Assembly: GCA_021732625.1 (NCBI GenBank)
Contig: JAKFUP010000040.1
Span: forward strand, 1 to 48,512
Source: Hyphomicrobiales bacterium
GTDB taxonomy: Bacteria; Pseudomonadota; Alphaproteobacteria; Rhizobiales; Xanthobacteraceae
DNA: 48,512 nt
Direction of reading: 5' to 3'
The position numbers and the translations under genes are program-made. Numbering within the stretch: position 1 is the first letter of the stretch; the number at the start of each line of letters is the position of its first letter. This document shows positions 9,510 to 45,836 of the stretch, one piece after another. Below the pieces are notes generated by a model. It searched no databases. It saw only the letters and a list, made by a program, of their open reading frames with translations, and was not told the origin of the DNA.

Positions 9510-10934
9510 TTACTTCAAGCCGAACCAGAGTGTTGCAATTCCGAGAAACGACAGGAAGCCCACAACATCGGTCACGGTGGTGACGAAGGTACCGGACGCA
9601 ACGGCGGGGTCTACCTTCATGCGGTTGAGCAACATCGGAATGAGAATGCCGCCGAGCGCACCTGCGATGAGATTGCAAAGCATCGCAAGGCCGATGACGA
9701 TTCCGAGGCCCGGAATTTTGAACCATGCAACCGCAGCAACACCTGTGATGACCGCAAAAGCGACGCCGTTGACGAGGCCGACAAGGGCCTCACGCAGCAC
9801 GATCCGCAACCCATTGCTCGCTCCGAGCTCACGCGTCGCGAGCGCACGTACTGCGACAGTCATGGTTTGGGTAGCCGCGTTACCGCCCTGGCTCGCGACG
9901 ATCGGGGCGAGTACCGCCAGCGCAACCATCTTCTCGAGCTGTCCTTCAAACAGCCCGAGCACAGACGAAGCGAGAAACGCTGTGGCGAGGTTGACCAACA
10001 GCCAGTTGAAGCGGCCCTTGGCGATGGTCCAGAACGTATCCGACAGCTCTTCGTCGCTGGTGACACCGCCTAGCGCCTTGACCTCTTCGTCGGCATCCTC
10101 TTCGATAACATCGACGATGTCATCGATGGTGATAACACCCTGAAGCCGCTGAGCCGAATCAAGCACAGGCGCAGCAACGAGATTGTATTTGCCGAACAGC
10201 CGCGCCACCTCGCTGAGATCTTCGTCCACTGCCACGCGGTGACGTTCCTCATCGATCAGTTCTGAAATCGGCACTGGCCGGCGCGCCCGAAGCAGCGCAT
10301 CGAGCGCGATCGTTCCCTTCAGTTCCCGCGACGCATCGACGACATAAATTTCAAAAAAACGATCCGGCAACTCGGGCGTCTCACGCATGTAGTCGATCAC
10401 CTGCCCGACATTCCAATCGGGCGCGACAGCGATAAAATCCGACTGCATTCGGCGGCCAGCGGAGTTTTCGGGATACTCAAGGCCACGCTCAAGCTCAACA
10501 CGCTCGTCAGGTGGCAGCTTGTTGAGAATCTCGTCCTGATCTTCTCGGTCGAGATCCTGGAGCAGTTCGACGGCATCGTCTATTTCAAGCTCACGGACGC
10601 CCTCCGCCACCGTTTCGGGTTCTAGCTCCTCGAGGATTTCCTCTCGGACGGCATCATCCACCTCGTTGAGCGCGGAGAAGTCAAAGTCAGCACCGGTCAG
10701 TTCGACCAGCCGCGGACGCTGGTCCGCATCGAGCGCTTCGATCAAATCACCAAGGTCAGCCTCGTGGAGTTCGGCGACGGTTTCCCGCAGAAATCCAATG
10801 CGCCCCTCATCGATGGCCTGAGATACCTGTTCGACGAATTCCTGGCGGATTTTCCCTTCTTTATCGTGCATCGGCGCGCGTTCGGAGAGGCTGGCGTTGT
10901 TGCCAGGCATGGCGTCGTGGTCTTGCTCGGCCAT
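9510..10934 (-). CDS. mgtE: Magnesium transporter MgtE
   Basis: A 474-residue protein with the full MgtE order. An acidic N-domain (about 30-150, with DLGDLIEAL, VELLQDLDREDQDEILNKLP) is followed by two CBS domains (about 150-275, ending VITIDDIVDVIEEDADEEV). The transmembrane channel domain (about 300-474) carries APIVASQGGNAATQT and the late GALGGILIPMLL and SGTFVTTVTDVVGF blocks. MgtE is a homodimeric Mg2+ channel in the inner membrane, closed by Mg2+ bound to the cytosolic domains. AAGG precedes the ATG by 8 bases. No Mg2+ riboswitch is recognisable in the 123 bases upstream. Confidence 0.95.
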   Translation of the reverse strand: MAEQDHDAMPGNNASLSERAPMHDKEGKIRQEFVEQVSQAIDEGRIGFLRETVAELHEADLGDLIEALDADQRPRLVELTGADFDFSALNEVDDAVREEILEELEPETVAEGVRELEIDDAVELLQDLDREDQDEILNKLPPDERVELERGLEYPENSAGRRMQSDFIAVAPDWNVGQVIDYMRETPELPDRFFEIYVVDASRELKGTIALDALLRARRPVPISELIDEERHRVAVDEDLSEVARLFGKYNLVAAPVLDSAQRLQGVITIDDIVDVIEEDADEEVKALGGVTSDEELSDTFWTIAKGRFNWLLVNLATAFLASSVLGLFEGQLEKMVALAVLAPIVASQGGNAATQTMTVAVRALATRELGASNGLRIVLREALVGLVNGVAFAVITGVAAVAWFKIPGLGIVIGLAMLCNLIAGALGGILIPMLLNRMKVDPAVASGTFVTTVTDVVGFLSFLGIATLWFGLK

Positions 10935-44833: not shown

Positions 44834-45136
44834 TCACAGCCAGAAGCGCCGGCGGCGCCAGCGGCGGCGGCCCCAGAACCGGCGGCGGCGATAACCCCAG
44901 AATCGGCGGCGACGCCAGCCGCGGCGGCGTCTGCCCCACCTCACCTCCTCGATGCGCGCGGCATCGAGATCGTTCTGATCGGCCACCGCAGGCTGGGGTT
45001 TCAGTTCATTGGGCGTCTCGGGCTGACCTGGCGCAAGCTGCGGCGAGAGCAGCGGCGCGGCCTGCGCTGCGGTTCCGGCCACAGCCGCTCCCGCAACAAC
45101 TCCGAACGCGACTTTCAGAAATGCACGGCGTTCCAT
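44834..45136 (-). CDS. Tat-exported small protein with Arg/Trp-rich tail
   Basis: A 100-residue protein with the signal MERRAFLKVAFGVVAGAAVAGTAAQAA, a Pro/Glu/Asp linker (about 28-64, ending IEEVRW) and a tail of Arg/Trp/Phe/Gly (GRRRRGWRRRRFWGYRRRRF and on). It shares the signal and overall layout with the protein at 36545-36862 but replaces Tyr-Pro repeats with Trp/Phe-Gly ones. The tail is as basic as a protamine. GAGGAAG lies 5-10 bases before the ATG. The function is unknown; see the findings. Confidence 0.8.
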   Translation of the reverse strand: MERRAFLKVAFGVVAGAAVAGTAAQAAPLLSPQLAPGQPETPNELKPQPAVADQNDLDAARIEEVRWGRRRRGWRRRRFWGYRRRRFWGRRRWRRRRFWL

Positions 45137-45284
45137 GACGCTTCCTCCCTTGTTTGTACCAAGATGAAGACACGCCAGAATGCGGAAGGTTGCATGAACG
45201 GGGAGTGAAGCGGGTGTTCAGGTTATTCGATGACGCAGATGCGGCCCACAGAACTTCAGCAAGCGCAACGTATGAGGCCTCGCC

Positions 45285-45310
45285 GTCATGGCCGGGCTTG
45301 TCCCGGCCAT
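45285..45310. repeat. 26-bp palindromic repeat, left copy
   Basis: This is a hairpin-forming sequence (ATGGCCGGG / CCCGGCCAT arms). Its 26 bases are the exact reverse complement of 45752-45777. It ends 21 bases before the ATG of the GIY-YIG gene. Confidence 0.85.
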
Positions 45311-45331
45311 CCCGAGTATCCATGCTGTGGC

Positions 45332-45622
45332 ATGGCCACTTGTCACGTTTACATTCTTGCCAGTCGTCCGGGCGGCGCATTGTATGTCGGCGTGACCAGC
45401 GATCTTGTCCGCCGCGTGTACGAGCACAAACAGGGAGTCATCGCCGGACATACCAAGCGCTACAACATTAAACGCTTGGTACACTTCGAAGAATTTTCCT
45501 CCATTAGAGAAGCTATTCAACGCGAGAAAAACATCAAACGATGGCCCCGCGTTTACAAGACGCGGCTGATTGCCGAAGCCAATCCAGAATGGCGCGACCT
45601 GTATGATGAGATCGCGGGTTGA
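45332..45622 (+). CDS. GIY-YIG nuclease superfamily protein
   Basis: A 96-residue protein. The GIY-YIG motif reads VYILASRPGGALYVGVT (6-22), with Tyr18-Val-Gly in the YIG position, Arg27 after it, RRVYEHK and the later REAIQREKNIKRW (with the catalytic-type Glu at about 60-65) and NPEW (84-87). It belongs to the small solo GIY-YIG proteins (UPF0213/YhbQ-like). These can act as metal-dependent DNA endonucleases, though many solo members are untested. The frame is open upstream through a palindrome, but the family N-terminus fixes the start at 45332. It is bounded by inverted palindromes. Confidence 0.88.
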   Translation: MATCHVYILASRPGGALYVGVTSDLVRRVYEHKQGVIAGHTKRYNIKRLVHFEEFSSIREAIQREKNIKRWPRVYKTRLIAEANPEWRDLYDEIAG

Positions 45623-45660
45623 TCCAGGCTGGCTTCCACATCTGCCTCGATATCTCCCGT

Positions 45661-45720
45661 CATCACCGGCCATCGCCGTTCGAAGAACGGCGTCGCTCCG
45701 CTCGCCGATGTGCCGGTGAT
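45661..45720. repeat. Palindromic repeat (CATCACCGGC family)
   Basis: Arms 45662-45670 (ATCACCGGC) and 45712-45720 (GCCGGTGAT) are inverted, with a second inner palindrome CGCCGTTC-GAA-GAACGGCG. It lies just after the GIY-YIG stop. Confidence 0.75.
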
Positions 45721-45751
45721 CCCGATAAGGGACACGCTGTTCCTAAGCGAG

Positions 45752-45777
45752 ATGGCCGGGACAAGCCCGGCCATGAC
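45752..45777. repeat. 26-bp palindromic repeat, right copy
   Basis: This is the exact reverse complement of the 26 bases at 45285-45310. It lies 59 bases before the end of pccB, so it could also serve as a terminator structure for the minus-strand gene. Confidence 0.85.
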
Positions 45778-45836
45778 GAAAAGAAGAACTATCGGCGGCC
45801 TTGCTGCCGCACTCCGCTCGCGCCACGAAGACGAAT

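Follow-up and report, generated by a model that had tools for sequence, protein, structure and literature searches.

Among the closest described relatives of the locus reported here are systems in which a RAYT enzyme is linked to REP palindromes. Section 16 of a 2013 survey by Di Nocera et al. (PMC3733652), in the portion available, describes RAYTs as low-copy nuclease genes with REPs or REP dimers on their flanks, accompanied by numerous dimers without a gene and paired with specific repeats. The same survey, as far as its accessible text goes, places CGTC-tagged REPs in a superfamily that includes the Neisseria dRS3 repeats, with a CGTC, TGTC or CCTC tag, a stem of 8 or 9, a loop of 4 or 5 and a CCA tail; these REPs form dimers in opposite orientation and the superfamily is rich in alphaproteobacteria. 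The accessible text reports no association of CGTC REPs with a transposase gene, a dedicated transposase apparently being missing. No word starting with GIY occurs in the main text of the survey, no paper linking GIY-YIG genes with REPs was found among the matches listed for the open-licence full-text literature, and the available parts of PMC12306157, PMC5896051, PMC1839093 and PMC13269885 contain no such link. Which enzyme, if any, makes the widespread CGTC REPs was left undetermined by the survey. We describe a gene and palindromes that probably represent a REP-plus-dedicated-nuclease arrangement with an unrelated enzyme, a candidate answer to the question left in 2013 and, with a cloneable protein of only 96 aa, one that makes it testable.

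Like the RAYT, REPtron and REPIN systems, the arrangement combines a low-copy gene framed by REPs, many gene-free dimers with the same ends and a pairing between enzyme and repeat. It differs in its catalytic domain, which is HUH Y1 in RAYTs and GIY-YIG (PF01541) in the gene studied here, and in the REP tag, which is GTAG in RAYT systems and CGTC here. The GIY-YIG fold is common to the protein, UPF0213, the UvrC N-domain and Slx1. GIY-YIG homing endonucleases belong to the same catalytic superfamily and resemble the present gene in that it changes place.

A solo GIY-YIG gene framed by CGTC-tagged REPs

The unit, composed of a REP, a gene and a REP dimer with the outer tags CGTC and GACG, occupies positions 45284–45778 of the window (the whole 48.5-kb stretch of DNA that was analyzed). 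The preliminary description had proposed that the 26 bases at 45285–45310 recur in inverted orientation at 45752–45777, that each copy is a hairpin and that a solo GIY-YIG gene lies between them, followed by a further palindrome, and each of these elements proved to be real. The 26-base copies are contained in longer inverted arms of 31 nt (45284–45314 and 45748–45778; 97% complementary, with an exact stretch of 28 nt), and both copies fold into a hairpin with a 9-bp stem and a 5-nt loop. On the plus strand, the left CGTC-tagged REP (45284–45313; tag CGTC at 45284–45287, tail CCC) contains the hairpin ATGGCCGGG-CTTGT-CCCGGCCAT at 45288–45310. The gene follows on the same strand at 45332–45622 (from the ATG at 45332 to the stop) and encodes 96 aa that comprise the catalytic domain only. 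The further palindrome corresponds to a second tagged hairpin (45658–45723, plus strand; CGTC tag at 45658–45661, tail CCC), whose stem ATCACCGGC/GCCGGTGAT lies at 45662–45670 and 45712–45720 on the plus strand and whose long loop encloses a smaller hairpin at 45674–45692. It is the left half of a REPIN-like REP dimer of ∼121 bp (45658–45778, no strand assigned), completed by the right CGTC-tagged REP (45749–45778, minus strand, tail CTC), an inverted copy of the left one. The window copies meet the definition of a CGTC-tagged REP (unpaired tag, 8–9 bp stem, 4–5 nt loop, CCA-like tail), and the left and right REPs were the only short-loop CGTC-type hairpins that a scan of the 48.5 kb detected.

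Both the REP and the dimer are dispersed. The 23-nt REP core occurs 66 times in the draft genome of 3.77 Mb when ≤3 mismatches are allowed, 31 of these sites being exact, versus none in the reversed control, which rules out a chance palindrome. The dimer segment was matched over most of its length at ∼75–83% in many relatives (hits to 45657–45779) and in two other contigs of the same genome, one of these matches being partial. Upstream of the unit, on the minus strand at 44834–45136, lies a 100-aa ORF whose start resembles an export signal and whose low-complexity tail is rich in Arg and Trp; no Pfam match was found for it at 0.001.

The protein is a bare GIY-YIG domain that matched PF01541 with an E-value of 6.5e-15 (the frame searched began two codons upstream of the ATG) and whose AlphaFold2 model had a pLDDT of 93.3 and a pTM of 0.84. 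In a Foldseek search with this model, UPF0213 (1zg2) was the best match (E = 3e-4) and the sole solved fold below 0.001, followed by weaker matches to Slx1 entries (0.009–0.06) and the UvrC domain (0.68 and above). Across 112 subfamily sequences, Y7, Y18, R28, H32, E65, K69 and N84 are conserved in 109–112. These include the GIY-YIG set of two Tyr, Arg and Glu, which we take to be the catalytic residues (Y7 in 109, Y18 in 109, R28 in 111 and E65 in 112). Comparing the gene on contig C64 of the same genome with three close units yielded pN of 0.11–0.15 and pS of 0.75–0.82, and with a distant unit pN of 0.31 and pS of 0.85 (pS is near saturation; comparisons of L047 with L189 and L190 were left out for a frame error). 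Since pN is low relative to pS between units, the subfamily protein is under selection. Among 14 proteins examined, the best match to a group I intron endonuclease model had an E-value of 9.4e-6. A phage gene was also considered and rejected, as tblastn with the window protein gave no match at 1e-5 in a phage collection.

The subfamily and its REPs within and across genomes

A PF01541 search of the draft genome returned five genes, three of which belong to the small subfamily of the window gene, and all three sit between inverted CGTC REPs. The window and C64 genes are framed by the same REP type (REP A), the third gene, on contig C81, by a different palindrome, GTCCCTGCGAAAGCAGGGAC, which has 76 matches at 69 places in the genome (seven on both strands), often as opposed pairs ∼100 bp apart. 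Both palindromes of this genome fit the published tag, the 8–9 bp stem, the 4–5 nt loop and a CCA-like tail. Unlike these three, the UPF0213-like gene on C134 has no flanking hairpin pair. No pair was found at the UvrC-like gene either, where the flanks were measured partly inside the gene, making this a weak test. The same reservation applies to UvrC and UPF0213-like control loci, none of 13 having a pair, since flanks were taken from the domain match and fell partly inside the long UvrC genes.

With a profile built from these three subfamily proteins, 70 of the 120 genomes examined in the order proved to carry the subfamily, with 1–5 copies each. Of 127 profile matches, 112 were examined; 14 were not included, and a second copy in L084, which is broken, was dropped by its score. 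A duplicate of the window locus (L036) and a UPF0213-like gene (L031) were not counted, and L053 and L270 were too near a contig end for the pair test. This test is blind to CGTC and requires an inverted pair of ≥16 nt and ≥85% identity, both members forming hairpins, within 500 bp on either side. Of 111 genes, 52 passed it, and none of 656 control positions from these loci did. In named genomes, a scan with 14 proteins yielded at least 573 relatives; of the best 80 of these, 37 of 79 loci met the test versus 0 of 194 controls (37 of 78 when L288, identical to L037, an alphaproteobacterial locus without a pair, is counted once). Together, the order and the best 80 of at least 573 named relatives gave 89 of 189 genes versus 0 of 850 control positions.

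The preliminary description had suspected, from other rhizobia, a recurring nuclease-linked repeat unit resembling RAYT and REP; besides the two further places in the same genome, the arrangement extends beyond rhizobia into several phyla. Among the named loci (again the best 80 of at least 573), pairs were present in alpha- (21/45), beta- (1/2) and gammaproteobacteria (3/5), unplaced Pseudomonadota (1/4), Myxococcota (2/3), Bacteroidota (2/5), unplaced bacteria (3/6) and the single loci of Armatimonadota, Moraniibacteriota, Uhrbacteria and LCP-89 (1/1 each). Within this same best-80 set, none was detected in Ignavibacteriota (0/2), Chloroflexota (0/1), Bipolaricaulota (0/1) or an unplaced deltaproteobacterium (0/1). 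Many of these loci are metagenome bins, and individual phylum placements may be wrong. In a plasmid collection, 9 of 15 loci (taken out of 40 records) met the pair test; among the nine are two records of Neisseria gonorrhoeae whose gene is embedded in a dRS3-type cluster, where repeat neighbours are common anyway, and the six that failed include Planktothrix and Spirosoma.

The pairs are not a general trait of small or intergenic genes, an explanation we rejected because control ORFs had a pair in only 5 of 1032 cases and short ORFs in 1 of 256. Within 300 bp of the gene, a CGTC-type REP was present on both sides in 100 cases, on one side in 34 and on neither in 57 (n = 191; any REP in 134), in contrast to the absence of a dedicated enzyme in the published account. 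A lack of enrichment next to GIY-YIG genes, which would have refuted the earlier suggestion, was not what we observed: the density of CGTC-type hairpins was 4.02 per kb up to 100 bp from the gene versus 0.10 per kb at a distance of 2–9.5 kb, and intergenic DNA adjoining the gene contained 4.34 REPs per kb versus 0.27 in other intergenic DNA. The hairpin detector used for the distance profile has a chance component (286 hits versus 135 in the same DNA reversed). The arrangement is also symmetric, the innermost REPs having mirrored orientations in 81 of 101 genes (tags outward in 64, inward in 17). The duplicate L288 is still included in the control-ORF and intergenic counts, the 37 of 79 and the symmetry counts. 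We parsed 80 gene-flanking REPs, which had stem/loop lengths of 8/4 (51), 9/5 (20) or 8/5 (6), a CCA tail in 59 and the tags CGTC (49), TGTC (21), GCTC (7), CCTC (2) and GGTC (1). The parser recognizes only tags of CGTC-like shape, and 17 of 97 flanking REPs remained unparsed and were left out.

At the level of whole genomes the relation is looser. Median REP counts were 8.4 per Mb with the gene versus 5.0 without (P = 4e-4), a crude comparison, as the pattern also catches non-palindromic matches (G025, G098) and its near-zero reversed control understates the background. Genomes G009, G065, G072 and G097 carry the gene and are REP-poor. Conversely, G071, G020, G028 and G066 are REP-rich without a subfamily gene; in the first three, the only GIY-YIG frame is of UvrC size, and G066 has nothing but one of this size and a member of another GIY-YIG subfamily. 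REP-rich genomes of this kind would require loss of the gene after the spread of the REPs, or a second mover. These four may hold orphan REP populations, or be a sign of another mover.

REP type follows nuclease clade

On a tree of 80 proteins, the REP loop class required 12 changes versus 22.7 when shuffled and the tag variant 3 versus 8.7, with none of 500 shuffles as low in either case. Protein identity was correlated with REP similarity (Mantel rho = 0.46 for pairs below 85% identity, a value reached in none of 500 permutations). The tree-based tests leave shared descent standing as a possible source of the pairing, part of which it can explain, and the tree has few well-supported forks. 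The window's genome is a better control, because the C81 protein and its REP group with the Bradyrhizobium loci L271, L279 and L294 (support 99) and not with C6 and C64 of the same genome. With matched and mismatched REPs occurring together in one genome, a direct test is possible.

Within the host family, we observed three protein clades (support 95, 92 and 86) that correspond to three types of REP and tail. The C64-like clade has the ATGGCCGGG REP with the 5′-side tail CCACG(T/C)C(T/C)T in eight of nine cases, the REP tails of the window-like clade (four proteins) start with C(C/T)CG, and a third clade (two proteins) has the REP ATTGCCGGGCTTGACCCGGCAAT-CCATC. Gene-free dimers of the window's own genome are mostly of the first, C64-like tail type, the second, window-like type being found in L018 and L019. 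Sequence comparison shows the repeat-specific pairing of enzyme and REP that is typical of RAYTs, with ancestry not fully excluded as its cause.

A second solo GIY-YIG subfamily, first noticed at L176, comprises nine genes in eight of the 120 genomes (L389–L397). It adjoins palindromes of the form CCTCATCCTGAGG...CGAAGGA (CCTCATCCTGAGGTGC...GCCTCGAAGGA), which are clear by eye at eight of the nine loci and diverged in the ninth. Words of this motif, picked after viewing those loci, reached 7.8 per kb up to 300 bp from the gene versus 0.20 per kb beyond 600 bp and 0.08 per kb in 80 other loci, and a CGTC-type REP was found on only 1 of 18 sides. The contrast between near and far DNA and the exchange of the repeat type support a pairing of this second subfamily with its own palindrome. 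Framing by CGTC REPs as a general trait of solo GIY-YIG genes was rejected on account of the 1 of 18 sides and of the UPF0213-like gene without a pair.

Presence and absence of the unit at orthologous sites

We inspected 30 exact REP-A loci by eye: four belong to the two gene units, and the other 26 are all inverted dimers, most of whose partner REPs were recovered by a strict detector. Such a gene-free dimer, mostly of ∼90 bp, reads CGTC-REP A-CCACGTCTT-15 to 25 nt-AAGACGTGG-second REP-GACG. The C64 unit reads CGTC-REP A-CCACGTC-gene-GACGTGG-REP A-GACG, the ends of the dimer thus being kept and the gene replacing the spacer. Units built in this way occur at other loci in related genera.

The C64 unit is located between two genes that we identified, from their translated sequence, as presumably murC and murB. 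Of 21 genomes read at this site, the gene unit is found in three, which belong to different genera. In 12, including one from the same genus, the gap is only 2–46 bp long, with neither gene nor REP, and in six the site is filled by other DNA that lacks the gene. Within the genus of G092, a dimer-gene-dimer unit is found in three of 12 genomes, and four alleles have neither the gene nor CGTC REPs, holding other palindromes or a short spacer instead (five were not resolved). The palindrome of the second subfamily occupies alternative alleles at this site. On plasmid AZO_p3 of Azospirillum lipoferum 4B (L220), sufB and sufC, both annotated as whole genes, enclose a dimer-gene-dimer unit within the suf operon, and four relatives have neither gene nor REPs there. 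In Shinella, two occupied loci compare with four alleles without gene or REP; in two of these, the gene together with all REPs falls inside the break in homology, and the other two lack the entire intergenic stretch (the record RAC02, with other DNA and one CGTC-type hairpin, was not counted). When the G092 genus, Shinella and Azospirillum were recounted with one detector, each of six occupied alleles had four CGTC REPs and each of 12 empty ones had none.

At these four orthologous sites, gene and REPs were present or absent together in the resolved alleles. A gene fixed at one locus while its palindromes vary independently, the other outcome that would have counted against the preliminary description, was likewise not found, the gene lying at different loci in different genomes. 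At the window locus itself there is no clean empty allele; G135, of the same genus, shares the flanks and holds another sequence of ∼0.5 kb. No target-site duplication was seen at the sites compared, nor could any be read, given how far intergenic DNA has diverged between these species, and none of the junctions was resolved to single-base precision.

Proposed mechanism and alternative explanations

Given the observed association, symmetric arrangement, pairing of clade and REP, presence or absence of whole units, gene-free dimers with the same ends and conserved catalytic residues, we consider it rather probable that gene and palindromes are one unit of a mobile-element system made of a GIY-YIG nuclease and CGTC-tagged REPs and resembling RAYT/REPIN systems, its movement and, as the preliminary description already had it, its cutting being inferred. 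The 96-aa nuclease would recognize the hairpins of its own REP type by tag, stem and loop, and tail, in single-stranded or cruciform form, and would nick or cut at the hairpin base. Cutting would free or copy REP-gene-REP as a unit. In trans it would do the same for the REP dimers of ∼90–120 bp, which greatly outnumber the gene units and have the same ends with a short spacer only. Host repair or replication would then complete insertion, mostly in intergenic DNA, and the whole would amount to a RAYT/REPIN-like way of working on a catalytic fold that is unrelated. Since GIY-YIG enzymes act by hydrolysis of DNA and are not known to form a covalent intermediate, strand joining, by inference, must come from the host. 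Recognition and mobilization are inferred as well, and the Slx1-like (branched-DNA nuclease) fold of the predicted structure is only a hint in favour of hairpin cutting. Against this explanation stand the 57 of 191 genes without a nearby REP, the REP-rich genomes without the gene, the REP-poor gene carriers, the lack of a resolved junction or target-site duplication, the reuse of sites on contig C21 and in the G092 genus, the shared ancestry that may underlie the pairing, and the need for the host to join strands.

GIY-YIG is also the classical homing nuclease fold, and the gene might be a passenger of the homing type, copied into existing REP dimers that its product cuts, with the REPs serving only as its target. 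Its position in place of the dimer spacer would suit such a passenger, as would a weak similarity to group I intron endonucleases, but one of the 14 proteins scored only 18.5 bits with the intron-endonuclease model, far below the cut-off of 56.05. Moreover, a homing target should persist in empty alleles, and those compared hold no CGTC-type REPs (12 at murC-murB and four each in Azospirillum, Shinella and the G092 genus), which makes a homing passenger less likely; we regard it as improbable, without excluding a non-REP target. A nuclease that serves genome upkeep by resolving REP cruciforms or hairpins in a UvrC-like repair, with the flanking REPs regulating or terminating its transcript, would agree with the low pN relative to pS between units and with the Slx1 and UvrC fold matches, which come after UPF0213 with weaker E-values. 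The available parts of a 2007 study (PMC1839093) call three small Caulobacter COG2827 genes UvrC-like and report an SOS box at a UvrC-like gene, which speaks for the same view; that these genes belong to the subfamily of the window gene is our inference. However, a patchy presence (70 of 120 genomes), changing locations, several copies with different REPs per genome, presence or absence as whole units and symmetric REPs on both sides are not what upkeep would suggest, and such a role, while possible, seems to us an unlikely account of the arrangement.

Could another enzyme, a RAYT or an unknown one, move CGTC REPs that gather passively around GIY-YIG genes? REP-rich genomes without the gene would allow for it. 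Yet the Y1 transposase domain (PF01797) had no match in the window's genome (90.6% complete) and none in 101 of 120 genomes, and in the 19 genomes with matches, 22 of 24 Y1 loci with full flanks had no CGTC-type REP within 1 kb (28 of 30 in a 600-bp test, with positions guessed for loci at contig ends). RAYTs were therefore rejected as the mover, and it is unlikely that they move CGTC REPs here. Nor do REPs gather at other genes, as seen from the 5 of 1032 ORFs and the second subfamily with 1 of 18 sides, and the REP type tracks the nuclease clade, so that we give very little credence to passive gathering. Returning to the mobile unit of nuclease and REPs, it may be generalized to a class of transposable elements with a bare GIY-YIG domain as the only protein, which would recognize its own hairpins, move itself as REP-gene-REP and drive dimers in trans. 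The partnership would have arisen at least twice (with CGTC REPs and with CCTGAGG...CGAAGGA). Its products would include the Neisseria dRS3 repeats, a large part of the palindromic repeats of alphaproteobacteria and comparable repeats of other phyla; we see the case for this wider claim as evenly balanced. If the nuclease proves to be the enzyme of the CGTC REPs, the mobility of hairpin REPs arose on both HUH and GIY-YIG, nuclease folds that are unrelated, and many genes annotated as 'GIY-YIG nuclease family protein' would be mobile-element genes and not repair genes.

Gene-free dimers and other repeats on contig C21

Contig C21 of the window's genome contains three gene-free dimers, one of which is common to G135 and two of which are absent there. 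At one of the two sites without a dimer, G135 has other palindromes instead. Such sites are therefore in renewed use and not simply empty, which is also the case at the G092 site. The contig also holds repeats of other kinds (locus L323). An element of ∼168 bp at ∼9962–10130 consists of two long hairpins (CAGTGTGGTGGTTCGAAAGTTC...) and is not a CGTC REP; it is absent at this site in G135 and has matches elsewhere in that genome. A short repeat at ∼2933–2998 (TCCCGAAAAGTGGGCACCGGTTTTCGGATCA...) is likewise absent at the same site in G135, which has other copies of it.
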